Source: Cyanidiococcus yangmingshanensis
Taxonomy: Eukaryota > Rhodophyta > Bangiophyceae > Cyanidiales > Cyanidiaceae
Length of the DNA: 64,000 bases
Assembly: GCA_013995675.1 (NCBI GenBank)
Contig: VWRR01000015.1
Span: 1-64,000, forward strand
Direction: 5' to 3'
The notes beneath the pieces are model-generated. The model made no database searches and was not told the DNA's origin. It was given only the letters and a program-made list of their open reading frames with translations. A program made the position numbers and the translations under genes. Shown in pieces: positions 2,620 through 63,280 of the stretch. Position 1 is the stretch's first letter; every line of letters starts with the position of its first letter.

Positions 2620-4375
2620 AATATAAAAGAAACCGGAGAAAAACTGAAGAACAAGGCCAGAAACCAGCCTCGAGACCCTGTGAAAACACAGCTTCGGCCC
2701 CGGCTCAACGCTACTGTCTGGCAGACTGGCCTGGGCCAGCCTGTGCACCCAATCACCGACGATTCTCAAAATCACAGCGAGACATACCAAACCAGGCCTG
2801 AAGCTACCAATAACACGTCTGTAAAAAGAAACCGGAGAAAAACTGAAGAACAAGGCCAGAAACCAGCCTCGAGACCCTGTGAAAACACAGCTTCGGCCCC
2901 GGCTCAACGCTACTGTCTGGCAGACTGGCTCGGGCCAGCCTGTGCACCCAATCACCGACGATTCTCAAAATCACAGCGAGGCATACCAAACCAGGCCTGA
3001 AGCTACCAATAACACGTCTGTAAAAAGAAACCGGAGAAAAACTGAAGAACAAGGCCAGAAACCAGCCTCGAAAGACTTTGAAAACACAGCTTCGGGCCCC
3101 GGCTCAACGCTACTGTCTGGCAGACTGGCTCGGGCCAGCCGGTGCACCCAATCACCGACGATTCTCAAAATCACAGCGAGGCATACCAAACCAGGCCTGA
3201 AGCTACCAATAACACGTCTGTAAAAAGAAACCGGAGAAAAACTAAAGAACAAGGCCAGAAACCAGCCTCGAGACCCTGTGAAAACACAGCTTCGGCCCCG
3301 GCTCAACGCCACCAGTCGATAGACTGGCCCGGGCCAGCCAGTGTGCTCAATCACCGACGATTCTCAAAATCACAGCGAGGCATACCAAACCAGGCCTGAA
3401 GCTACCAATAACACGTCTGTAAAAAGAAACCGGAGAAAAACTAAAGAACAAGGCCAGAAACCAGCCTCGAAAGACTTTGAAAACACAGCTTCGGGCCCCG
3501 GCTCAACGCTACTGTCTGGCAGACTGGCTCGGGCCAGCCGGTGCACCCAATCACCGACGATTCTCAAAATCACAGCGAGGCATACCAAACCAGGCCTGAA
3601 GCTACCAATAACACGTCTGTAAAAAGAAACCGGAGAAAAACTAAAGAACAAGGCCAGAAACCAGCCTCGAAAGACTTTGAAAACACAGCTTCGGCCCCGG
3701 CTCAACGCCACCAGTCGATAGACTGGCCCGGGCCAGCCAGTGTGCTCAATCACCGACGATTCTCAAAATCACAGCGAGGCATACCAAACCAGGCCTGAAG
3801 CTACCAATAACACGTGTGTAAAAAGAAACCGGAGAAAAACTAAAGAACAAGGCCAGAAACCAGCCTCGAAAGACTTTGAAAACACAGCTTCGGGCCCCGG
3901 CTCAACGCTACTGTCTGGCAGACTGGCTCGGGCCAGCCGGTGCACCCAATCACCGACGATTCTCAAAATCACAGCGAGGCATACCAAACCAGGCCTGAAG
4001 CTACCAATAACACGTCTGTAAAAAGAAACCGGAGAAAAACTAAAGAACAAGGCCAGAAACCAGCCTCGAAAGACTTTGAAAACACAGCTTCGGGCCCCGG
4101 CTCAACGCTACTGTCTGGCAGACTGGCTCGGGCCAGCCGGTGCACCCAATCACCGACGATTCTCAAAATCACAGCGAGGCATACCAAACCAGGCCTGAAG
4201 CTACCAATAACACGTCTGTAAAAAGAAACCGGAGAAAAACTGAAGAACAAGGCCAGAAACCAGCCTCGAGAGCCTGTGAAAACACAGCTTCGGCCCCGGC
4301 TCAACGCCACCAGTCGACAGACTGGCGTGGGCCAGCCGGTGTGCACCCAATCACCGACGATCCTCAGACTCTCAA
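2620..4375 (+). repeat. Array of about 199-bp tandem units, copy A
   Basis: The marker AAACCGGAGAAAAAC recurs nine times at steps of 199-200 bases (about 2630, 2829, 3029, 3229, 3428, 3627, 3827, 4026, 4225). Units differ by small blocks that look shuffled: some carry CTGTCTGGCAGACTGG, others CACCAGTCGATAGACTGG, in front of a GGGCCAGCC box. Several contain GCCAGTC-GATA-GACTGGC, a perfect 7-bp inverted repeat. A 199-base period is not divisible by three, so the array cannot encode a repeat protein in one frame. Confidence 0.95.
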
Positions 4376-8264: not shown

Positions 8265-9640
8265 AGAATATAAAAAGAAACCGGAGAAAAACAAAAGAAC
8301 AAGGCCAGAAACCAGCCTCGAGACCCTGTGAAAACACAGCTTCGGGCCCCGGCTCGACGCCGCCAGTCGATAGACTGGCCCGGGCCAGCCGGTGCACCCA
8401 ATCACCGACGATTCTCAAAATCACAGTGAGGCATACCAAACCACTCTTGAAGCCCTCAATAACACGTCTGTAAAAAGAAACCGGAGAAAAACTGAAGAAC
8501 AAGGCCAGAAACAAGCCACGAGAGCCTGTGAAAACACAGCTTCGGGTCCCGGCTCGACGCCACCAGTCGATAGACTGGCCTGGGCCAGCCGGTGCACCCA
8601 ATCACCGACGATTCTCAAAATCACAGCGAGGCATACCAAACCAGGCCTGAAGCTACCAATAACACGTCTGTAAAAAGAAACCGGAGAAAAACTAAAGAAC
8701 AAGGCCAGAAACCAGCCTCGAAAGACTTTGAAAACACAGCTTCGGGCCCCGGCTCAACGCTACTGTCTGGCAGACTGGCTCGGGCCAGCCTGTGCACCCA
8801 ATCACCGACGATTCTCAAAATCACAGCGAGGCATACCAAACCAGGCCTGAAGCTACCAATAACACGTCTGTAAAAAGAAACCGGAGAAAAACTAAAGAAC
8901 AAGGCCAGAAACCAGCCTCGAGACCCTGTGAAAACACAGCTTCGGCCCCGGCTCAACGCCACCAGTCGACAGACTGGCCTGGGCCAGCCGGTGCACCCAA
9001 TCACCGACGATTCTCAAAATCACAGCGAGGCATACCAAACCAGGCCTGAAGCTACCAATAACACGTGTGTAAAAAGAAACCGGAGAAAAACTGAAGAACA
9101 AGGCCAGAAACCAGCCTCGAGACCCTGTGAAAACACAGCTTCGGCCCCGGCTCAACGCCACCAGTCGACAGACTGGCCTGGGCCAGCCGGTGCACCCAAT
9201 CACCGACGATTCTCAAAATCACAGCGAGACATACCAAACCAGGCCTGAAGCTACCAATAACACGTCTGTAAAAAGAAACCGGAGAAAAACTGAAGAACAA
9301 GGCCAGAAACCAGCCTCGAGAGCCTGTGAAAACACAGCTTCGGCCCCGGCTCAACGCTACTGTCTGGCAGACTGGCCTGGGCCAGCCGGTGCACCCAATC
9401 ACCGACGATTCTCAAAATCACAGCGAGACATACCAAACCACTCTTGAAGCTACCAATAACACGTCTGTAAAAAGAAACCGGAGAAAAACTAAAGAACAAG
9501 GACAGAAACCAGCCTCGAGAGCCTGTGAAAACACAGCTTCGGCCCCGGCTCAACGCTACTGTCTGGCAGACTGGCCCGGGCCAGCCGGTGCACCCAATCA
9601 CCGACGATTCTCAAAATCACAGCGAGACATACCAAACCGT
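8265..9640 (+). repeat. Array of about 199-bp tandem units, copy B
   Basis: The AAACCGGAGAAAAAC marker occurs seven times at 199-200-base steps, against nine in copy A. The first two units carry CCAGTCGATAGACTGG. Later units mix both block types seen in copy A, in a different order. Confidence 0.95.
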
Positions 9641-34509: not shown

Positions 34510-37500
34510 CTAGTTCATGAAACCAACACAGTCCGTGTCGCCACAGAAACAGGGAATCTTGGAGGCATTCTCCAAGTCAAACATATAGTTATAGGTGAGT
34601 TCCTCGCCTCGACGAATGGCTCTCGAACTGCGAATCACGATCACGTCGTGACCGGGTTGATCGCTTAGACGTAGAATCTCGCTGTAACAGTTCGGTCGAC
34701 AGGAATGATTGATGAAACGAGCGACGCTGCCACGCATGGTCGCGTCGACTACCCAGTCTGCATCGATACGAAACATGTAACAGCCGATACCGCGACGATC
34801 ATAGTGACGCTCGCGGACATCAGCCACCGGAGAAGCAATGCGCTCACCTGCATACTCGATAATCATCTGATCGGGTTCAAGGTCACAGCGGGCAAAAAGG
34901 CCGAATCCATGAATACGAGAGCGCAACGGTACACAGTATTGACGGGTTTTGATCTGCATCTGGCGATACTCTCGACGCTCAGCGGCTGTCGCAGGCACTG
35001 CACCGGTTGCAGAACGCTTGCATCTTGGCTGCGTACTTTCTGCATTGGTTGACAACTCGATAATCCTTGATTCTGCGCCCGATGGGCCGCCCGGTCGAAC
35101 GTTCAGCGGATGCTGCTGGTGCAGGAACGACTCAACAAAACGATGAACAGCCCCTAAACAGGCCCATTTTTCAGCATGGCTCGGGCGTTCATAGGGACGA
35201 CATCGCGCCGAGCCGGTAACATCGCTTAGGCGCACGCGTGCTGCGTCTCGTTGGAGGCACGAGCGCTTGCCAGCGTCGCCTGGACCCTGAGCATCCGCAC
35301 AAGCGAGACGACGCACAAGTGCTGGTACTGGACAGAAGAAGCGTTGCGCCAGAATAGACTCATGTTTGGAGCAAAGATCCCAGAGTGAGCGCAGGGATGG
35401 ATTGTTCGCGACTGGAGGTACACTGGTCTGCCAGATGATGCGCACCCGCTCGATGAGCTGATGCCATACTGCATGGGCACTCGCACCCATCAGGCACAAG
35501 CTTGGATCATCCAACGCACGTAGGGAGTAGGCTCCAGTGTGCGAACCTGTCGCCGTCCAGCTCAAAAAGTATATCGTTCGTCGCAACGGAGTGCTTGCGC
35601 TCCAAAAGCGGCGCGCTGCATACAAGTCCTGGGGCAGCGTATTCATCTCATTCATGTCTGCTGGCTCTGGTGAGTTCCATTCGCCATGGTCCAACAAGGT
35701 CCAGGCGCCGATACGCAGTGCCGGTTTTGAAGCAGATGTTGACGCCCTGGTGCACTCCAGGCGGCTCAGCAGAGGCGCCAGACTCATTGCATGAGCGTGA
35801 ACGGTAGGCAGGTTCCGACCGGTGACACGAGCGAACAGCGCTCGATGGTCATGACACCAACACATCAGGCTTCCCCGAATGATCTCAAACGAGGACGCCT
35901 CTTGTGCACACGGCAGGTGAAAAGCTCGCGAACATGCCACATAGGAGCAAAACACCGATGCTCCGGGCCGATGACACTCTGTACAACATCGGGTCCTAGC
36001 GCCCAGCACAACCTCGCCCAGCAGAGAGCCCCAGTGCGTGGATAACGCCAGGCAGGCCGAGTGAACCCACGCTTGACGTTCGTTTGCGTCATGAATAGGT
36101 ACCAGTTCGCCAAGCCGGGCATTGCCATCGTCCTCAGGGCGCTCACAGAGGACACAACGACGGTAATCGGACGTGGAACAGAGCAATGGCCACAGGAGAT
36201 GCTCTTGCGTTAGCCGTTCAGCCAAACTCGCCTCGGTCGTCGGGCGAGTCCAGGCCAAGTTCCGAATGGACCACGATGAACCGGCGTCGCTCGTCTGTTC
36301 AAGATCGAGTACGCGTCGAGAACGACACGACGCTGTATTCGCTAGAACGATTTCTCGGTGAGTATCTTGCGACACCATTTTGGATGGCCTCGTGCCCGAA
36401 GCAAGATTGGGACTGTCCCTTTCGGTATGAAACTTGTTCACCTTCTCCGATTGCCTGAATGCTGTCCAGGCTGAGCTAGGAGTCAGCGGTTGTTCATCAC
36501 CCGTAGCAGGCGTTCGGTTCCGTCTGAGCAGCAAGTCATCACGCTGCTCCGTTTCGTCACCAAAGCGCGGGAGCAGATCGGGCTTGTCCTCGAGTTTCAT
36601 CCTAGTTTGCGAAAACATCGTATCCGCACCTCGGGTAATCACTTCTATCGCCTGGCCCAGGAATTCGCCTAGTCGCCCATAAGAAGCGATCTGCTGCTCG
36701 TTGCCTGCAATGCTTGACTCTGTTTCCGCTGCCGCCTTTGAGCATGGCATACATAACAAGGTCCCTTGCAAAGCAAATACGTTGGTATCGAGTCTCCTGT
36801 CGCAGACCAGACAAGCCAGATCCGCAAGAATGCATTCCGTTCGAGATTCAGGCACAATGGCCATGCTATCCTGGTGAGCTGCAGCGCCCACAGCATCGTC
36901 AGATACATCATGCTTCGCAAGAAACAGACGATGTCCAGTGGCAATTCCACAGTCGTCACATTGCTTGGACGAGCGGTTCATCTCATGTGGGCCCAGGGCT
37001 TCCTCGCCAAGTCGATGTTCAGACGAAAGCACGCGCTTACTCGCTAGCATCGTATGCGCAGTCGTGATCGAGTTTTCTGAAACGGACGCGCTCAAGGATG
37101 CGTCCGAATTGACATCGACCTTTGGTGCAGCTGCTTTGGTGCGCGGTCCTTGGCGACTCACGCCAGCGGTCTCCAGCTCTGCTGGTTGCCCCTGATGATC
37201 ATCACCAAAAGGATACAAGGTCGGCCCAGGACCAGCAGCGAAACTGAGCGACCGCTTGGGCGAACCAAGCAGCTCAGTGACCACTCTGGTCTGTGCTGCA
37301 TTCGCCTTGATGTCAAGCAGAGGAGCGCGCTGGTACTGCGCACACGCCAGCCAACACAATGGACAGCAGCAAAGAATGCGCATGAGAGGATCTTCGGAGC
37401 TCCACGAACTCATCTGTGACCAGTTGAGCATATGCAGGCAGGCGATATGATAGGATTCGCCGCAGAGCCAACAGAACGAGGCGCTCTGATTTGAGGCTTC

Positions 37501-40083
37501 TGCGGTTACATGACAAACGCGGCACAGTTCCTTGTTCAGAGAGACTGCAATCCGGCAGGGAATGAACTGCTCCAATCCAGCTTGTTCGGGGACGTTCCAG
37601 TCAAGGATGCCTAGTGATGACAAGGAATGAATACTCGTTGGCAGCTCCATGAGGGTTTCAGCATTGTCGCGAGTTTCGGAATCGTTTCTCTGGCGATCTG
37701 AAAGGGCATCTATGGAAGAAGCCTCATCAAGGGCAACGGCAAGGCACTGATGTGATACATTCGCCTCCATCGCGATGCCGTTCATTGGCGACGAACGCAC
37801 GAGTTCCGATAACGACAGACAATAACCCGATATATTGCGTTGAGCTTGGTCTGCATTCGACGCTGCTTCTGCTTTCTTACTTTCCGCCATGGATCCCTGA
37901 AAACGCCTCGCTTGTCGAGCTCGCCGGGAGGGCTTGCGTCGCCAACGCCGCTCTAGAGCCTGGAGCGCTTGATCAACAAAGGAGGACCATGGCTGCGGCT
38001 CCACATCCCCAAAGTTCAGCTCTTGCACGAGACTCCAAACGAGGCAAACATCTTCAGGATGGGTGATTCTCGCGCTGCTGCCTTTCTCCTGCGGTAGATC
38101 CGTTGGTTTGCGAGCATGTTCATCCACTGCAACGAATGGCACGCGTTTCTTTCTTTGACCAGACGACACGCGAGGTCGCTTCAGCGCTTCAGATGTCGAA
38201 TCTGGATCCTTTTCGGAAACCACATTCATTGTTTCGTGCTGGAGCCTCAGTGGATTAGATTCCAACGATTTCGAGCTGAGGGTCTCCGTCCGCTCTGCAA
38301 ACGCTAATCTCTGATCGGGCTTTTCTCGAAACGGATTATGCTCCTCAAATGGAGATACGGATTCCAAAACAGCGGACTCGGGCTGCAGATTGGAATCTCG
38401 ATTCATGGTCATCTTAGCTGATGGTTTCGGTTCAGTTGGTAACGTGCTATGATCAGTGGCTGTCTCGCAGTGCAGCCCTATAAGAGGGGCATTCAACTGG
38501 CCCCGTGCTTGATTTTTTGCACGAGTGGTTTGTCTTGCTCGATCAGGATCAGAGATCATTTCTTGGCCAGCATCTACGGAACGATTTTCCGAGTGGGCAT
38601 CGTTCCATGTGCGCCGCGCCATTAGCTGGCGATTCGAAAGTGCCTCTCCAGCACGATCATCATGGTCAGCATCTGAGGGTATCGGCTGCGGGCCAGTCCC
38701 CATTGTCTCGTCACAAAGTCTACGCGGCTGCCTACCTAAAGCCAGCGCACAGCCATGTCCATGAATGCCGGCATTCTCATTCGCTGCAGCGGCATATACA
38801 TCAGTTCGCCGCTTGGATGTATTCTTCGTGATTTTCGTCCCTATCAAGTGTCGTCTTCTTGAAACTCGCAACTGCTCCTTGCTGACGTGTGCACCATATT
38901 TGGCTCTAGATTGTGCGTGCGAATTGAATGCTCGCCGTCCTTGAACTGCTTGAACGCCCGCTGCAGATGCATCTTGAACGCCCGCTGCAGATGCATCTTG
39001 AACGCCTTGCGAATCTGCAACTGCTGTGCGCTCACTAGACCGCTGTTTCTTGGAATTTCGGGAGTGTTCCCTGTATGTCACCCTTGTCGATCGCGCTGCT
39101 CGATTGCTCTCGTTCCGTGATGATTCCAACCTGTCTGAGCTCACCATCGCGCATTTCCGACGAGCCATCGTTCTGCGGCTCGTCGTCTCGTCAAGAGACG
39201 ACCATGAATCGGCCATTGGAGGATGCGAGCGCTCTGTTGACTGCCTCACACAAGCATCACAATGAAACATCATCTTCTTACTTCTGGGTCGGTGCTTTGC
39301 GACACATCCGCAATGGTACTGCCGCCGGCAGCGAGAGCAGACCCAGCGATCCTTTGTATCATGGTCGGAAAACCGCTGAGCGCATGTCGCACAGCGTGCA
39401 CAGACTGGACACTGCCAAAGACGTTCGTCCTGGGGCAACAGCACGGTTGGACACTGCCCCATGCCAATACAATGTAGATGGGCGGAACGCTCACAAGCGC
39501 TGCAGTGCAGCCGGGGTGAGACCATTGGCCATGGCTCTCCACTCGAGAGGCACCAGTCACAGGGAGTCAGCCATTCCGCAGATGGTGTCTCTAGACAGAG
39601 AAGCTCACTGCGGAGAAACAGACCGCGCTTCTCAGCGACGTTTCGATGACGCCCGCAGAAAACGAGTCGCTGCTTCGTCAAAACGGCTGCTCCCGCCAGA
39701 ATCGCACAGCGAAAGTGGAAGTAGGTCCAGCAGGTTCGGGGCGCTCGATACGCACAAGTGATAGTTCCACCTGGCGCATGGCATACACTGCAGCGAATAG
39801 AACGACCTCGACGCACTGTTGCGCCGACAACGTCCTCCGTGAACAAGTCGTGGCTCAGACACTCGGCACTGAAGCGAAGACATTGTTCGTGAACATAAAG
39901 AGGCTGTTTCGCTGGCGCTTTGGGTCTAAACGGACCCATCAAGCGCCCTTCAACACACGGTTGCTCCCCACTTTGACCACAGAGCGCGCAACACTCGCTG
40001 CGGGTCGGCTCACAGAGCGCGCCTGCGAAGGGTACTTGTTCAGCAAGCTGGCTTCGACGCTGGCGCTTCCTTGCCAGCACCAT
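34510..40083 (-). CDS. Trithorax/ATX-like histone H3K4 methyltransferase (multi-PHD, FYR, SET)
   Basis: Chromatin protein of the KMT2 type. From the ATG at 40083 (1857 residues), positions approximate: an extended PHD finger (30-150), clustered PHD fingers (175-285), a further PHD-like finger (850-925), a small CxxC pair region (about 1115), a second extended PHD (1310-1430), FYRN then FYRC (1458-1570), and a C-terminal SET domain (1715-1857). The SET domain shows HGFGLFA, the cofactor-site motif RFINHSCRPNCYS, ELTYNYMF and the post-SET cysteines ending CFCGDTDCVGFMN. That ending is typical of trithorax proteins. The middle is low-complexity and carries an eight-residue tandem repeat GVQDASAA. 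An upstream GTG at 40104 is in frame but the ATG is preferred. It starts divergently from the HtrA gene, 350 bases away. Frame intact over 5.6 kb. Confidence 0.95.
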   Translation of the reverse strand: MVLARKRQRRSQLAEQVPFAGALCEPTRSECCALCGQSGEQPCVEGRLMGPFRPKAPAKQPLYVHEQCLRFSAECLSHDLFTEDVVGATVRRGRSIRCSVCHAPGGTITCAYRAPRTCWTYFHFRCAILAGAAVLTKQRLVFCGRHRNVAEKRGLFLRSELLCLETPSAEWLTPCDWCLSSGEPWPMVSPRLHCSACERSAHLHCIGMGQCPTVLLPQDERLWQCPVCARCATCAQRFSDHDTKDRWVCSRCRRQYHCGCVAKHRPRSKKMMFHCDACVRQSTERSHPPMADSWSSLDETTSRRTMARRKCAMVSSDRLESSRNESNRAARSTRVTYREHSRNSKKQRSSERTAVADSQGVQDASAAGVQDASAAGVQAVQGRRAFNSHAQSRAKYGAHVSKEQLRVSRRRHLIGTKITKNTSKRRTDVYAAAANENAGIHGHGCALALGRQPRRLCDETMGTGPQPIPSDADHDDRAGEALSNRQLMARRTWNDAHSENRSVDAGQEMISDPDRARQTTRAKNQARGQLNAPLIGLHCETATDHSTLPTEPKPSAKMTMNRDSNLQPESAVLESVSPFEEHNPFREKPDQRLAFAERTETLSSKSLESNPLRLQHETMNVVSEKDPDSTSEALKRPRVSSGQRKKRVPFVAVDEHARKPTDLPQEKGSSARITHPEDVCLVWSLVQELNFGDVEPQPWSSFVDQALQALERRWRRKPSRRARQARRFQGSMAESKKAEAASNADQAQRNISGYCLSLSELVRSSPMNGIAMEANVSHQCLAVALDEASSIDALSDRQRNDSETRDNAETLMELPTSIHSLSSLGILDWNVPEQAGLEQFIPCRIAVSLNKELCRVCHVTAEASNQSASFCWLCGESYHIACLHMLNWSQMSSWSSEDPLMRILCCCPLCWLACAQYQRAPLLDIKANAAQTRVVTELLGSPKRSLSFAAGPGPTLYPFGDDHQGQPAELETAGVSRQGPRTKAAAPKVDVNSDASLSASVSENSITTAHTMLASKRVLSSEHRLGEEALGPHEMNRSSKQCDDCGIATGHRLFLAKHDVSDDAVGAAAHQDSMAIVPESRTECILADLACLVCDRRLDTNVFALQGTLLCMPCSKAAAETESSIAGNEQQIASYGRLGEFLGQAIEVITRGADTMFSQTRMKLEDKPDLLPRFGDETEQRDDLLLRRNRTPATGDEQPLTPSSAWTAFRQSEKVNKFHTERDSPNLASGTRPSKMVSQDTHREIVLANTASCRSRRVLDLEQTSDAGSSWSIRNLAWTRPTTEASLAERLTQEHLLWPLLCSTSDYRRCVLCERPEDDGNARLGELVPIHDANERQAWVHSACLALSTHWGSLLGEVVLGARTRCCTECHRPGASVFCSYVACSRAFHLPCAQEASSFEIIRGSLMCWCHDHRALFARVTGRNLPTVHAHAMSLAPLLSRLECTRASTSASKPALRIGAWTLLDHGEWNSPEPADMNEMNTLPQDLYAARRFWSASTPLRRTIYFLSWTATGSHTGAYSLRALDDPSLCLMGASAHAVWHQLIERVRIIWQTSVPPVANNPSLRSLWDLCSKHESILAQRFFCPVPALVRRLACADAQGPGDAGKRSCLQRDAARVRLSDVTGSARCRPYERPSHAEKWACLGAVHRFVESFLHQQHPLNVRPGGPSGAESRIIELSTNAESTQPRCKRSATGAVPATAAERREYRQMQIKTRQYCVPLRSRIHGFGLFARCDLEPDQMIIEYAGERIASPVADVRERHYDRRGIGCYMFRIDADWVVDATMRGSVARFINHSCRPNCYSEILRLSDQPGHDVIVIRSSRAIRRGEELTYNYMFDLENASKIPCFCGDTDCVGFMN

Positions 40084-40433
40084 GGAAGGCAACGGCACGA
40101 ACACCGGCGTCCAAGTAAGTCTTGGTAAGCCTCAGGTGTAACTTTGCTGCCTCTTGTTGAAGAAAGCGAAACAAACCGTTATCGCTAGTTGATCAAAGAC
40201 GTTTGCCCTAAAGCCTCAGGTCTGCACGACTCGCCAAGCCATGAGACTCATTTCGCGCGCTGCCAGCGGGGATGCATCGCAGTGCGCTCCTCAGTGTGCT
40301 CCAGGTACCGGTGGTGTCCCTTGCAACGACTTTGAACCAGATCAATCACAGACGAGCAACGGAGGAATATTGAGTGGCGATCTGACTACTGCTTGGTCGC
40401 TGCATCAGTCAAAGGACTGCTTAGTCGTCCGAA

Positions 40434-56072: not shown

Positions 56073-58244
56073 TCAGATCTCTTCAACGAGCGCGGCTCGT
56101 AGCTCCTCGCGTTTCGCAGCATCATCATCATCGGCAGGGAATTTCTTGTCGAGTTCAGTGCCACTTGGCGGTTTTGAGGATCCGCCTCTCTGACGACGAA
56201 GCTGGGAGCGTCGTCGATCCATCACAGCCTGGAGACGGGGAGTAGGCGTGTTCTCATTCCTTTCGCGTCGGCCCAGCGCTCGTTGGAATTCCTCCCAGAA
56301 AACTACAATGTCTTCAAAGTCTGGGCGCTGCTGGCTACGTCGACGGAAGCAGCCGTCCAAGAGTGATTTGAGACCTTCGTCTGTCTCTCGTGGCGGATAC
56401 AGACGATCGCCCCGTTGCGCTACGCGATAGATCACCTGAATGGGATGCTCATTCGACCAGGGTTTCTCACCAGTGATCAGCTCCCAAACGATGACTCCGT
56501 ACGACCAGACGTCACTCTTCTCGTCGACGGCTTCGTGACGCATCACTTCGGGTGCCATCCATTCGGGGGTACCTGCCGCCCCAGTCATGAGCATGGTGTT
56601 GACGCGAGAACGGCTAAGACCGAAATCTGTCACGATCGGCATGCCGGTTTCACCGTCAATGAGCACATTCGGCGACTTGAGATCTCGATGGATCACCGGT
56701 GGACGTTGCGAGTGCAGATAAAGCATACCCTGCGCAATGCCCAGCGATAGAAATGCAATCTCGGCTAGGGTAAACGCGGGTCCATCTTCCGAACGTCGCG
56801 AATGAATCAGGCGATAGAGCGAGCCGCCACTAACAAACCCTAAAACAATGCAGAGATGGGGCGGTCTCGTCACCGTTCCACAAAACGGCACAATGTTCGG
56901 GTGTCGCAGTCGACTAAGAAGCACCATCTCCTTTTGGAAATCTTCCACCGTTTCAAGGCTGAAGCCGTCATCGTCTCGAGTGAGTTGTTTCACCGCCACG
57001 ACCAGACCACGCCATTCGGCCATGAACACTTCACCGAACGCTCCTGATCCAAGCTTGCTGCCGAGTTGCAGCTCGTCGTATGGTATATCCCACTTGGCTC
57101 GCCATTCAGAATCAAAGAGAAGCGGTGCGTTGCCATAATATTCCATTTCAGTGGCCCTGATCTCGACTGCATCAACCGTAACGGCTTCGTGCACGGTCGA
57201 TAGTGAGCGCTGCAGGGCCGCGGTCCCCGGTTCGGTACCCAATGCACCCTTTGCTGCCGCAACGAATCGGGATGGGTTCTGACCCTGATCCAATGTCCGC
57301 GACTGAAATCCAACACCTCGCGAGCAGAAACGCCACGGATCAGCATTCGGCTGACTCGCCGAGGATACGCCAGACGCATCCGACGAGTTCGTTTCGTTGA
57401 AGGATGCTCGCCTCGACTCGGGCGGCCCACGATTGCGAGATAAAGCAGAGGTGTTCACATCTCGGTTTTGTTGCCAGAGCTGCCGCGCGAGACCACCCTC
57501 ATGTTGCTCATGGCGGAGGTTCTCTACTCGCTCCAAACGACGATGAAGCGCTGCCAGATCACCGACGGCTCGCGGGAGTGCCTCTCGATTCTGTTCACGG
57601 CAATCGAGAACGCAACGATCTGGAATACATTGGGCCAGCGCGGGCAGATCCGCGCTCCGCCAATAGATCATGCAAAACGTCTCCGGACCAAACTCGCAAG
57701 CCTGACAGACCGCTAAAGAGAAAAGCGTGCCACACTGCGGTGAGCGGAAAAACGAGTCAGACACCAATGCAACCAGCCTCCGCGAATGAAGTAAGGCGCT
57801 ATACCATTCATCCATGAAGTACGCAGAACGCACTTCCGCTTCGTCACCAGCTGTTCGGGCGGATTCCAGTACCAACGGTTCTCGATTCATTGCACTTGCT
57901 GGTTCTGCAACGCGATTCTCCGAGTTGGCGACAGGATCTCCAATGTAGCTGGTTTTCCTCTCCTCGGACGATGCCATCACCGCACCGTCGGAAACGAGAT
58001 TCGGGCGCGCTTCCGCTTCCGCTGCTGCTGCTGCTGCTGCCGTCTGATCTGCAGTCGCAACGCCGCCGCCAGGCGCAATCTTGCTTGTAGCAGCGCCATC
58101 TTCAGAACCAAATATCGCCTTTGAGTGCGGTCCCGCAACGACCATTCTATCCAATGTCGCGATTAGCTCATTGACTGGCCTCGCATCGCCCTCTGTAATG
58201 GCGCTGGGAGCAGCCACAGACCCATTTGAAGCGGGCAGTGGCAT
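56073..58244 (-). CDS. TIR-half plus Raf-like (TKL) protein kinase
   Basis: A 723-codon frame with two recognisable parts. Residues about 145-255 read as the second half of a TIR fold: DEWYSALLHSRRLVALVSDSFFRSPQC, then ETFCMIYWRSADLP. Residues about 385-680 are a complete kinase domain of the Raf/CTR1-like TKL type: glycine loop GSGAFGEVF, VAVKQL, catalytic HRDLKSPN (about 518), DFGLSR (about 540), WMAPEVM and DVWSYGV. All catalytic residues are present, so the kinase should be active. The first 145 residues are low-complexity with an alanine run. The ATG at 58244 directly follows an in-frame TAG, and the frame overlaps the upstream macro/TIR frame by 77 bases at a +1 offset. The first TIR half lies in that frame, so both are probably one gene. 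Confidence 0.9.
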   Translation of the reverse strand: MPLPASNGSVAAPSAITEGDARPVNELIATLDRMVVAGPHSKAIFGSEDGAATSKIAPGGGVATADQTAAAAAAAEAEARPNLVSDGAVMASSEERKTSYIGDPVANSENRVAEPASAMNREPLVLESARTAGDEAEVRSAYFMDEWYSALLHSRRLVALVSDSFFRSPQCGTLFSLAVCQACEFGPETFCMIYWRSADLPALAQCIPDRCVLDCREQNREALPRAVGDLAALHRRLERVENLRHEQHEGGLARQLWQQNRDVNTSALSRNRGPPESRRASFNETNSSDASGVSSASQPNADPWRFCSRGVGFQSRTLDQGQNPSRFVAAAKGALGTEPGTAALQRSLSTVHEAVTVDAVEIRATEMEYYGNAPLLFDSEWRAKWDIPYDELQLGSKLGSGAFGEVFMAEWRGLVVAVKQLTRDDDGFSLETVEDFQKEMVLLSRLRHPNIVPFCGTVTRPPHLCIVLGFVSGGSLYRLIHSRRSEDGPAFTLAEIAFLSLGIAQGMLYLHSQRPPVIHRDLKSPNVLIDGETGMPIVTDFGLSRSRVNTMLMTGAAGTPEWMAPEVMRHEAVDEKSDVWSYGVIVWELITGEKPWSNEHPIQVIYRVAQRGDRLYPPRETDEGLKSLLDGCFRRRSQQRPDFEDIVVFWEEFQRALGRRERNENTPTPRLQAVMDRRRSQLRRQRGGSSKPPSGTELDKKFPADDDDAAKREELRAALVEEI

Positions 58245-60807
58245 CTACCAGGGCTGCCGTCGAATACCTGTCGGGCACCGGCTCAAGATCCGACGGTAAT
58301 GCAACCGATGGTGGCACAACGTCGCCATCTTCCGAAGCGGCAGGTTTCGCATTCCGCCGCGCGGATTCTGATCCTCCAATGTTGGTGGACGCCAGTTCCG
58401 ATTTCGAAATGAGCTCACCAATAGAGGTCGGTCCAGCACCTTGCAACGACGACGACTCGCTCCATTCACGTTGTTGCGCGAGTTCCGTTGCAGCAATATC
58501 AAGCGCGCGACTATGCATGTCAAATACCTTGAATCCGTATCGAGCTCGTAAGAGGTGAATGAGTTCCCAAGCCACTTTGGTGTCGTCGCGATGGTAAATA
58601 ATGAAAAAGTCCCGAGTGAATCGGCGTTTTTTCGGAGCTGCTCGCAATGGTGGCAGCGCTGTGTCCCTAGTCTCTGATGAGGAGTCGGGCCCTGCGCGAG
58701 GCGACGGCGCACAGACCGTCGTTGGTGGGGCCTCTATCGGTGCCGCCTGCGCAAGCGTATCCGTTGTGGGATCTGTTTCCTGATACGAGTGGCTGGGGTC
58801 ATATCGATATGACTCATCGAAACAGCCACGGAATGACGAAAGCAGCGCATACACCGGTGCAGTGCAGAAACCAGGAGGCAACAAGATCCGCACAAGTGGA
58901 AGGTTCAAACCAGCACTGCACCAGCGCAATGCTGCATCCAAAAGATAGGTCAGCACATCGATGCCCTCCGCAGCATATTCCAAGGATAGCGGAAACATGA
59001 CGCTACGTATAGCCGTTCTTCCAGTGCTGAGCAAGGTCAGAAAGCCGAACGCGTTCTGAATTACGCGCTTGTACGACAGCGAATGATTTCCATCCATCAC
59101 AAGAATTCTACGGAACTCGACACCTCGTGGACGCGGGCGCCGCAGCGCGCTTGTCACCCAGGCTGCATAATGCCGTCGATACGCACGCTGTGGTTTGGAT
59201 TCTGCCGCCAAAATCGGTAGATACAAACCGACAGAGCGCAGCTCTGCAAGAATGCTCGGCAAACTACTCTCCATCTTTGCAGGGACAATGGATTCCATCG
59301 GGATCGGATGAACCCTTGTGGGTTTTGTACCAGAGGCGGGCCATGGAGACGACGACTCTGGCGCGGTCGGCGCCATTCCCGTGGTCGATCCCGCATCACG
59401 GGAGCCCTCTGCATCAGCGCCTGGAGTATTCGATCCAAAAAGAAGGCTCAAGCTGAACTGGTTAGAAGGCCTGTGACTGGCCTGTGCGAGACCTCTCGAG
59501 GCCGGCTTCGTAGGGTTCGCACAGATAACCAGCAGATCCACCGCATCGCCCGCAGCCATATTCACCACGGATCCTTCACATACTTCCACGATTGATCGAC
59601 CAGAGGAACGATGAACGGTATAATACTCCTTACGCTGGAACGATTGCGCCAGCACAGGCAGCAGCGGCAGTGCTGCTTCTGGCGATGCTTCGGAGTCATC
59701 GGAGACGGGTCGTTCTCCGTTCGCCTCGGAAGTACGTCCCTCTGCAGTAGGTGCACCCACAACCGGTGCATCATCGCAAAGGCTCGAGACCACTCTATCT
59801 GGGCTGTTGAGCCGCTCGCCGATGGAGTGCTCACTCGCGATTGCCGGCGCCTCGTCGGTGTCGGCGTCATGAAGCTCGGGACTTGGAATCTCGGCGATCG
59901 CTGCCGCGTGCGCATCCGTCCGTGCATCTGTCGATGCCAGTGGTGGTTCCCGCAGACTATCGATGCTTTCAGGTACAGTCGATGACTGATCGATGGGCGC
60001 GGCTTGATTTCGCGCACCTAAGGGCATCCCCGCCGGATCCGTAATGCTTTGAGAGTGATTCGCATCTTCGGCATGAAGATCAGTGTAGCCTTCAGGTTTG
60101 GGCCTCAACTCGAATTTGGCGTATCCATTGAGTGCATCTGTTGAGAAAGACTGCCCCGATCGACAACCCTCCTCTGTGGAAAGAGAGCGCTCTTGAGGTA
60201 TGTTCGTCATCATTGATGCAGAGGGTTCCCGTGTCGCACGCGATCTGTGGTCATCCCCATGGAATGATCGAGATCCACCACTAGCCGTACTACCTGCACG
60301 GAGTTTCTCGCGCCGCGATGGCGGCTGCGTACTCGTCGATGAGCCACTGACCCCAGACAACCCATCGCGAGCGGACGGTACTGCATTCGCGTCTTTCGGG
60401 CAATAAACGCGCTGTAGCTCTCCATCCAACCAGATCGAAGAGTCGCCTCCGAGACCGGCGGGCCCGACCGAGGTGCCCAGATTTCCGAGGCCGCGCAGGT
60501 ATGACCCGACCAATAGCGCAAGAACACGGGCAGCAAAATTGCGCTTTTTGGATGGATCTCGGGTTCGGGCAAGTCGCTTTCGTCGCTGAAGGCTTTCAGC
60601 CCCTGACATCGACTGCACTTGTGATGCGGTTATCGGGGCCTCCGCCAAATCCAAGGCCTCCTCAACCTCATGCGGAGGCGCTGTTCGCGACTTGCGACCT
60701 CGGCGGAAGAACCGTCGTCGAGGCTGCCGCTTCTCGGAGGCGCCCACAAACTGATCCTCCGCAGCTTGTTTCATGTCGTTGTTCGCGAAATGAACCATTC
60801 CAGACAT
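58168..60807 (-). CDS. Macro-like and TIR-half protein, probable N-terminal part of the TIR-kinase gene
   Basis: From the ATG at 60807 this frame has 879 codons (an in-frame GTG at 61092 would add 95). The first 400 residues are low-complexity, rich in S, R and E, probably disordered. About 400-665 resembles a divergent macro domain (ADP-ribose-binding fold): GRSIVEVCEGSV, then DAVDLLVICANPTKP in place of the usual VDAIVNAAN, later TAIRSVMFPLSLEYAAEG and LPLVRILLPPG. The glycine-rich phosphate loop is not kept. At about 725-770, RDFFIIYHRDDTKVAWELIHLL then YGFKVFDMHSRALD matches the opening strands of a TIR domain. The frame runs out at 58168 without the rest of the TIR, which continues in the overlapping kinase frame. 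TIR call fairly firm, macro call tentative. Confidence 0.75.
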   Translation of the reverse strand: MSGMVHFANNDMKQAAEDQFVGASEKRQPRRRFFRRGRKSRTAPPHEVEEALDLAEAPITASQVQSMSGAESLQRRKRLARTRDPSKKRNFAARVLALLVGSYLRGLGNLGTSVGPAGLGGDSSIWLDGELQRVYCPKDANAVPSARDGLSGVSGSSTSTQPPSRREKLRAGSTASGGSRSFHGDDHRSRATREPSASMMTNIPQERSLSTEEGCRSGQSFSTDALNGYAKFELRPKPEGYTDLHAEDANHSQSITDPAGMPLGARNQAAPIDQSSTVPESIDSLREPPLASTDARTDAHAAAIAEIPSPELHDADTDEAPAIASEHSIGERLNSPDRVVSSLCDDAPVVGAPTAEGRTSEANGERPVSDDSEASPEAALPLLPVLAQSFQRKEYYTVHRSSGRSIVEVCEGSVVNMAAGDAVDLLVICANPTKPASRGLAQASHRPSNQFSLSLLFGSNTPGADAEGSRDAGSTTGMAPTAPESSSPWPASGTKPTRVHPIPMESIVPAKMESSLPSILAELRSVGLYLPILAAESKPQRAYRRHYAAWVTSALRRPRPRGVEFRRILVMDGNHSLSYKRVIQNAFGFLTLLSTGRTAIRSVMFPLSLEYAAEGIDVLTYLLDAALRWCSAGLNLPLVRILLPPGFCTAPVYALLSSFRGCFDESYRYDPSHSYQETDPTTDTLAQAAPIEAPPTTVCAPSPRAGPDSSSETRDTALPPLRAAPKKRRFTRDFFIIYHRDDTKVAWELIHLLRARYGFKVFDMHSRALDIAATELAQQREWSESSSLQGAGPTSIGELISKSELASTNIGGSESARRNAKPAASEDGDVVPPSVALPSDLEPVPDRYSTAALVDATARFKWVCGCSQRHYRGRCEASQ

Positions 60808-62216
60808 GTTCAGCAAGAAAACTGCCGGAACTATCTGGGTAACTGCAGCAGACCGACCTCGCCGGTGCGGACTTTGCAGCCCTTGCGACAAGCAAGATTC
60901 AATTCTATTTCGTGTCAATGTCCAAAAGAGGTCAAATATAGCAGCGCTACCAAAGCCGCGGCCTCCTGCTATTTCAGTGCGCCACTCTGGCTGCTGATGC
61001 TCGTTCTCCGGAACGCTTTCCGGCTGATCAAGAACCTGAACGCCACGCTTCGTAGCGAATGCTACCTCAAGACAACCTCTGCTGCGAAACACAAACTGAA
61101 ACTATCTAAATATCAAAGGATATCTCGAAGAGAAGCCGAGAAGCTCTCGGACGAGTTTCGACAGCCGCTCAGAAAACGCGAGCCAGTCGCGCGCAGCGAC
61201 GCCGCTGCACTACCAGCCCCAGAGCCGTTTGAGCGTCAACTATTGCCTACCCGGCAACAGATGCCAAGTCCCGTCCCTGAACGCCTAAATACCTTGCCCG
61301 TTTTTAGAGTAAACCCAGGCGTTACGAACAAGCGCTTGCCAACAAGAACACAACCTCTCGGATACAAATTGCAACAACGTATGCACGCATGCGTGCGCGC
61401 TGCCACCACGCACGCACCATGCGTGTGTCCGTTCAATCCGTGCGTGCATATGCATGCAAGCAGTGGCGCTGCGTGCGGATGGCATCGACCGGTGGCCCGC
61501 TGCGCAGCCGCAACCGGTGACAGCGATTGCCAAAGATGCTGCACCGCAGTCCCGTTTCGAGATTCGTATAGCGTCTGCACCGTTGCATGCGCACCCGTCC
61601 GCGGTCTCGCTGGCCGAACACGCATCACTGGATATGCATTGTTTGGTCGACCAAAATATCCACAGATAACCGAGTACGCATTCCTTGGTTGTCGAAAACC
61701 CCCGTGTACGATCGAGTGTGCATTCCTTGGTCAACGATCGTTCTATGCGTACGATGCGGGTCGTCGGCCAACGCCCCGTGGTGACGACCCAGAGACGTTT
61801 ACGGCGACTCTGAGCGAATGCATGGTGGCCTGGACGCTTGTCGTGAAGTATTACATTCTCGTACAGGCCGATTGGCCACCATGCTCTCTGTGTCTAGCGG
61901 GATGCGTGCCGTCACCCGAATGAGAAGAGACAAATGTTTTGTAGGCCTAGGTCGTTGCACCCCGTAGACATGCGGAGGCGTAGATTATGTGATTTGGATC
62001 AATCGTGTGGCCTTGGGTTGCTCCATACGCTCTGCAAGTCGACGGATGGCCTGATGTATGCTTCGTCTTGGAGAGATGTGCCTACTCTGAGTGTTCCGAA
62101 TATGGTCGCGTCATCATACATGCCAGGTTTTTTCTTGTTGCTGGGTGCGTTTCGGGCGCTCTCGGCGCCTGCATTCGGCTGACGCCCCAACGGCGAGTAC
62201 GATAGGCGCGTTGGTC
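60808..62216. other. Divergent spacer upstream of TSR3
   Basis: Contains GCATGCGTGCGTGC-like alternating stretches near 61385-61455 and three imperfect repeats of TACGCATTCCTTGGTTGTCG type at about 61636-61735. A 417-codon plus-strand frame (60670-61923) spans it, but its content is repeat-derived and its left part is antisense to the macro/TIR gene. Not called as a gene. Confidence 0.5.
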
Positions 62217-62918
62217 ATGCGCTTGCGAGTTATGGGCCCAGAGCCGCTTCTGGGTCCCAACTCGGAGCTGGATCGTCCAGATAGAGAGGAACACGAGCAG
62301 ATTCGTCTGTACATGTATGACTTTGGGCAGTGCGATGTGCGTCGCTGTACTGGACGCAAGCTGCTTCGACACGGCTTATTGTGCTCGTTGCGGTTAGGGG
62401 TCCCGTGTCACGGGGTACTGCTCTCACCGGACGCTTCCACAGTGCTTTCGCGCGCGGACGAAACGTGTGTGCGCAAATGGGGGCTCGCTGTTATCGACTG
62501 TTCATGGAATCAGATTGAAGCGTCTTCTTTACGTCGGGTACATTGTCGGGGCCTAGGACAACGACGACTCTTGCCGACGCTCCAAGCAGTCAACCCAGTA
62601 AACTACGGCCGTGGAGCTCGACTGAGTTGCGCGGAAGCTCTCGCTGCGGCGCTCTATATTGTGGGTTGCAAGTCGACAGCGCGGCGTGTCTTGCAGCCGT
62701 TCGGCTGGAGCCATGCTTTCTGGGATGTCAATCAGGTGGCTTTGGATATGTATGCGGCCTGTCCGGACGCTGATGCTGTTCTTCTCGCCCAAGATGCCTG
62801 GCTAAAGCAGGTAACGCGAGAGTATGTGGAAGCAAGAGCTCAATGGGATCCTTTCGCTGGTCTGGACTCGGATGAATCGGACTCCAGTGCGAAAGCAGAC
62901 GCTCCAAACAACGGATGA
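62217..62918 (+). CDS. TSR3: 18S rRNA aminocarboxypropyltransferase TSR3
   Basis: Transfers the aminocarboxypropyl group of SAM to the N1-methyl-pseudouridine of 18S rRNA, a late cytoplasmic step in small-subunit maturation. Seen in the 233-residue product from the ATG at 62217: YMYDFGQCDVRRCTGRKLLRHGL (about 30-52), GVLLSPDASTVLSRAD, VIDCSWNQI, and the long family signature LPTLQAVNPVNYGR followed by LSCAEALAAALYIVGC. A short acidic tail is usual for the family. The frame extends upstream to a GTG at 62091, but that part has no homology. The stop codon at 62916-62918 falls within the first unit of the 98-bp tandem repeat. Frame intact. Confidence 0.95.
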   Translation: MRLRVMGPEPLLGPNSELDRPDREEHEQIRLYMYDFGQCDVRRCTGRKLLRHGLLCSLRLGVPCHGVLLSPDASTVLSRADETCVRKWGLAVIDCSWNQIEASSLRRVHCRGLGQRRLLPTLQAVNPVNYGRGARLSCAEALAAALYIVGCKSTARRVLQPFGWSHAFWDVNQVALDMYAACPDADAVLLAQDAWLKQVTREYVEARAQWDPFAGLDSDESDSSAKADAPNNG

Positions 62919-63280
62919 AGGGGTATGGTCGTTACTCTCATGGTTTCATCGCTCGGGTTCGAGCACGGTATCGCCATGATTTAGAAGTGGTCTTATCTGC
63001 CCGAGATAACGGATGCAGGGGTATGGTCGTTACTCTCATGGTTTCATCGCTCGGGTTCGAGCACGGTATCGCCATGATTTAGAAGTGGTCTTATCTGCCC
63101 GAGATAACGGATGCAGGGGTATGGTCGTTACTCTCATGGTTTCATCGCTCGGGTTCGAGCACGGTATCGCCATGATTTAGAAGTGGTCTTATCTGCCCGA
63201 GATAACGGATGCAGGGGTATGGTCGTTACTCTCATGGTTTCATCGCTCGGGTTCGAGCACGGTATCGCCATGATTTAGAA
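62910..63280 (+). repeat. 98-bp tandem repeat, 3.75 near-identical copies
   Basis: The mark GTATGGTCGTTACTCTCATG recurs at 62923, 63021, 63119 and 63217, exactly 98 bases apart, with almost no differences between copies. Each full unit holds two perfect hairpins: GCTCG-GGTT-CGAGC, and TTATCT-GCCCG-AGATAA about 30 bases later. The first unit begins over the TSR3 stop codon, so the array would lie in that gene's 3' untranslated region. The GGTTCGA core recalls a tRNA T-loop, but the pairing around it is wrong for one. Confidence 0.95.

Follow-up and report, generated by a model that had tools for sequence, protein, structure and literature searches.

A predicted single-chain macro-TIR-Raf-like kinase protein in Cyanidiococcus with a TIR domain lacking the catalytic glutamate

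The window analyzed here, a 64,000-nt stretch of Cyanidiococcus yangmingshanensis DNA (contig VWRR01000015.1, positions 1 to 64,000), forms the start of contig 7 in the searched genome of 12.07 Mb and 20 contigs. On its minus strand, at 56073..60807, lies a gene for a protein that contains a predicted macro-like domain, a TIR domain and a TKL (Raf/CTR1-like) kinase. The initial annotation had placed these in line as one protein, and three homologs with everything in one open frame indicate that this is the order on a single chain. We consider it probable, at roughly 0.55, that the predicted macro fold and a TIR lacking the catalytic glutamate jointly switch the kinase in a non-enzymatic manner.

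Two minus-strand open reading frames (ORFs) are present, at 58168-61101 (977 amino acids stop to stop) and 56073-58244 (723 amino acids), and they can be joined by a one-base slip into a gene running from an ATG at 60807 to a stop at 56073. A protein search with the upstream frame as the query, of a type that requires shared exact words, retrieved P0001 (1559 amino acids), P0002 (1451) and P0003 (1236), each of which runs as a single open frame, uninterrupted by a stop, from the upstream part via the TIR to the kinase. The search for the same order in relatives, which the initial annotation had proposed, thus yielded three examples. The window ATG aligned to residue 1 of P0001. The domain cores were 48-89% identical among the four algal proteins, whereas the inserts and linkers between the macro domain and the kinase were only 12-38% identical; since the cores are far more conserved, we rejected chance as an explanation. 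The sole source name seen among the three homologs, that of P0001, is serine/threonine protein kinase, and because it mentions nothing else, the N-terminal half seems to have been overlooked.

The kinase (56268..57149) is certain, as the initial annotation had stated: it matched Pfam PF07714 at E 2.5e-56, its top PDB sequence match was CTR1 (E 2.4e-71), and the catalytic motifs were intact in all four algal proteins. In a tree of 21 rows, which included 11 of the 30 own-genome kinase loci (of 64 matches) and 6 of the 18 bacterial loci, it clustered with the own-genome kinase L007 (100/99). In that tree the position of L036 is meaningless (the wrong strand was read), and L003, which is the window itself, was omitted as a duplicate. 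L007, a 755-amino-acid frame at G000:C13:222556, is the nearest own-genome paralog in the tree, and no macro or TIR signal was found at this locus by profile. The PADLOC mad6 model matched the window kinase (56304-57071) at 3e-83 and L007 at 7e-76. A MADS mad6 identity was rejected, since the model also matches a paralog without the macro-TIR half and the match is thus generic; it cannot tell MADS kinases apart from eukaryotic TKL kinases such as these.

The TIR is divided into a first half (strand A, helix A and strand B; 58456..58632), mapped by profiles and structure prediction, and a second half (57519..57827; helix B through helix E), mapped by Pfam, profile comparison and a model. Between strand B and helix B, at the place of the BB loop, is a low-complexity insert (57828..58455) of 209 residues in the window and of 197, 194 and 108 residues in P0001, P0002 and P0003, respectively; its placement relies on the element order in the models, and MAFFT alignment misplaces the bacterial strand B. 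The raw upstream frame gave no Pfam match at E<=10, and the raw downstream frame matched TIR_2 only over the second half (E 0.058). When the insert was removed by script, the joined halves gave a TIR_2 match at E 1.6e-6 that covers positions 1-109 of the 122, which bears out the earlier proposal that two TIR halves lie on either side of a frame overlap with a low-complexity insert between them. A macro-TIR profile of three bacterial proteins, run on the six-frame ORFs of the window of at least 60 amino acids, matched only these two ORFs, in the correct order (E 1.4e-10 and 5.3e-8). The halves were also modelled separately, and the order of their elements fits a TIR fold, although the models are weak. 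Searching the own genome with the TIR and TIR_2 families gave no match, this split TIR included; because these searches missed the TIR in hand, they do not show it to be unique in the genome.

TIR NADases require a glutamate in helix C, which in plant TIRs sits beside a conserved cysteine (PMC9153377). This glutamate was not found in any of the four algal proteins, all of which have leucine at its position (codon CTT, 57723..57725, residue 1028 of P0004, placed by alignments). The algal motif is S-P-x-C-x-x-L-F in four of four, whereas the bacterial one is S-x-x-C-K-E-E-F in three of three.

The macro-like domain comprises three initial strands (59512..59652), placed by structure prediction and profile comparison, an insert after strand 3 (residues 433-515, 59263..59511) and a remaining part (58792..59262). 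The insert, probably near macro loop 1, has 83 residues in the window and 71-83 in the other algal proteins, is 12-34% identical, and mostly has a predicted local distance difference test (pLDDT) score below 50. In the remaining part, the ligand loop after the FPL strand reads PLSLEYAAEG in the window versus PLVATG, PLVSTG or PVVASG in the bacterial homologs. P0003, the most divergent relative, has PLTREYG, with a glycine one residue past the bacterial [TS]G position; because of this retained glycine, the loop change is weaker evidence than the missing TIR glutamate. Elsewhere in the own genome, the only Pfam Macro match was L055 (G000:C8:140618-140992; E 8.8e-37), a separate 240-amino-acid frame.

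The overlap of the two frames (58168..58244), stressed in the initial annotation, does exist and spans 77 bases; however, it most likely reflects a one-base slip in the window sequence, real or from assembly, and not a part of the architecture. Codon usage showed a coding signal on either side of a switch at about 58220-58247, and this signal, the few introns of the genus and the fact that none of the best candidates is a good splice pair favor the slip. One-base slips are common in PacBio long-read assemblies. The published Cyanidiococcus assembly is of this slip-prone kind, being built from PacBio long reads (PMC9812998), which argues against a recent pseudogene, in which a genuine slip would limit the strain to a macro half cut short and, at most, a kinase made separately from the ATG at 58244. 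Such a loss would agree with a single break that has no counterpart in the three homologs; however, both frames are otherwise open across 4.7 kb and coding signal flanks the switch on both sides, and we regard it as unlikely. A short intron connecting the frames is very unlikely and was rejected: under loose rules (GT or GC ... AG) there were 415 frame-restoring candidate pairs, but none of the best 40 of these combined a good donor with a good branch site, codon usage showed no clear non-coding gap, and the homologs are continuous across the junction, as judged from their protein sequences. Just 36 introns are reported for Cyanidiococcus (PMC9812998, PMC13353863). That the two window frames, with the ATG at 58244, are distinct genes for a macro protein and a kinase is barely credible, since the TIR is divided between them and each of the three homologs is one protein.

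The bacterial searches covered genomes of the phyla of G114, G003 and G002. A profile of the algal cores (A2) found two adjacent genes of about 400 amino acids in the planctomycete genome G114 (E 1.1e-24 and 1e-12), each of which is macro-like plus TIR. Across 392 planctomycete genomes, 14 matched A2 at E<=0.1, of which G114 alone was convincing, the other 13 lying at E 0.005-0.1; A2 found nothing in genome G003 (0/1). With a bacterial macro-TIR protein as the query, 4 of 298 genomes in the phylum of G003 matched at E<=1e-8, over almost the full length in one and over parts in the others. Profile A8 matched 1 of 398 genomes in the phylum of G002, where just the TIR part was hit, and 1 of 392 in that of G114, namely G114. 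The resulting bacterial two-domain set consists of the two G114 genes and one in G653 (385-403 amino acids). Alignment of the algal and bacterial cores by hhalign gave E 1.1e-23 over 319 columns. The two G114 proteins matched TIR_2 strongly (E 9.3e-22 and 3.3e-22), one of them also showed a faint macro signal (Pfam 0.24; NCBIfam macro hydrolase 0.042), and all three complete bacterial homologs keep the TIR glutamate. With these homologs on one side and the grouping of the kinase with L007 on the other, the macro-TIR module is of a bacterial type, and the kinase is the alga's own. That the Cyanidiophyceae captured a bacterial macro-TIR immune module, and that this module, after loss of its NADase and ADP-ribose sites, was fused to a native Raf-like kinase as a one-chain innate-type receptor kinase, is a tentative proposal that we hold to be possible. 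Separately, the adjacent planctomycete macro-TIR genes at L056:97-2517 are 58% identical with the TIR glutamate intact, and this pair resembles a compact, self-contained TIR system of bacteria.

The kinase is the single predicted enzyme of the chain, so that regulation of this kinase is the best reading of what the macro-TIR half does. A signal, either a protein partner or a nucleotide, would alter how the macro-TIR module assembles; such a change would gather or release kinase domains, which would phosphorylate one another on the activation loop, and the activated kinase would relay the signal as a mitogen-activated protein kinase kinase kinase (MAP3K). Such a relay would be an analogue, within one polypeptide, of the animal MyD88 and IRAK step. 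Macro and TIR folds commonly bind nucleotides, and even in degenerate form the two domains might retain binding of ADP-ribose or a different NAD-derived nucleotide and signal its presence to the kinase, a sensor role close to the idea of the initial annotation. Inactive TIR-class domains have indeed been described as nucleotide sensors (PMC9503650), and the shifted glycine of P0003 fits such a role; however, the macro loop is changed in all four algal proteins, an insert interrupts the macro domain after strand 3 and another is located at the TIR BB loop. Because both ligand regions are altered, we prefer assembly or partner sensing, and nucleotide sensing seems doubtful. TIRs without the glutamate do work by assembly, Myd88/Mal acting on IRAK (PMC9153377). 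The initial annotation also tied the protein to NAD-derived signalling, but the making of such signals is not supported. That the TIR is an active NADase, with the kinase acting on or near its product, would agree with the glutamate kept in the three complete bacterial homologs, but the leucine in all four algal proteins makes it highly improbable, and the altered macro loop likewise speaks against NAD-derived signalling.

Several observations weigh against a switch of the kind that we favor. The macro-like region named in the initial annotation gained a predicted macro fold, but Pfam Macro was unmatched at E<=10 in all four algal proteins, and with Foldseek alone the macro model gave no match under E 0.001. 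The TIR exceeds the TIR_2 cut-off of 28 bits in only one of the four proteins and only with the insert excised (29.1 bits in the window; 25.2-25.8 bits in P0001-P0003), and it was modelled as halves, not as a whole, with a weak second half (mean pLDDT 48.9). The BB loop, which is used in known TIR assembly, seems to be replaced by the long insert, so the standard TIR-TIR interface is disfavored. Moreover, the four leucines may represent a single inherited event.

Besides the three domains, an N-terminal patch of about 46 residues (60424..60561, residues 83-128 of P0004), conserved in P0001 and P0002 (65% and 43% identity) and not in P0003, is a candidate targeting or membrane helix. The ten large neighboring ORFs that we scanned have ordinary nuclear-type domains. 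One of the frames in the window (34513-40104, 1864 amino acids) encodes a SET domain along with PHD-like zinc-binding domains and is likely a histone methyltransferase. Close to the contig start are two arrays of a similar unit of about 200 bp (2625-4366 and 8271-9638; 8.7 and 6.9 copies, 94% matches), and a 98-bp tandem repeat (62910-63280; 3.8 copies, 99% match) begins where a Ribo_biogen_C-matching ORF ends.

If the switch is as we propose, this conserved single-chain macro-TIR-TKL protein would offer one of the simplest testable TIR-kinase pathways, in a genome reported to have about 4,800-4,900 genes (PMC9812998 and PMC13353863) and a group described as genetically tractable (PMC13353863). 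It would also exemplify a bacterial NAD-handling module turned into a non-cleaving signalling domain. The bacterial two-domain proteins are homologous across macro and TIR in identical order, but their ORF lacks a kinase and long inserts and retains the TIR glutamate and the macro [TS]G loop. Conversely, the plant Raf-like MAP3K CTR1 and the own-genome TKL kinases have only the kinase domain in common with the algal protein; to our knowledge CTR1 carries no macro or TIR domain, and L007 showed no such signal. Thoeris with the macro-domain ThsA also combines TIR and macro in one system, but as separate proteins with an active TIR, and the word kinase is absent from the text of the paper on it (PMC11204291); a Thoeris identity, with a separate NADase ThsB and a ThsA effector, was rejected, since the algal protein is fused and its TIR lacks the glutamate. 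The red alga Chondrus crispus likewise has a TIR protein, TIR-NBARC-WD40, with NB-ARC and WD40 where the window protein has macro and kinase (PMC9806590). As the initial annotation had supposed, no macro-TIR-kinase family was described among the matches listed in the open-access literature. In animals, TIR domains connect to kinases via adaptor proteins; IRAK is a TKL kinase, and MyD88/Mal and IRAK are separate proteins linked through death domains. As in the algal protein, a TIR without the catalytic glutamate (PMC9153377) is there coupled to a TKL-group kinase, whereas the alga would have both on one chain, together with a macro domain. If the capture of a bacterial module is also true, a unicellular alga would have made its own version of the MyD88-IRAK step independently, and this would link prokaryotic TIR immunity directly to MAP-kinase signalling.
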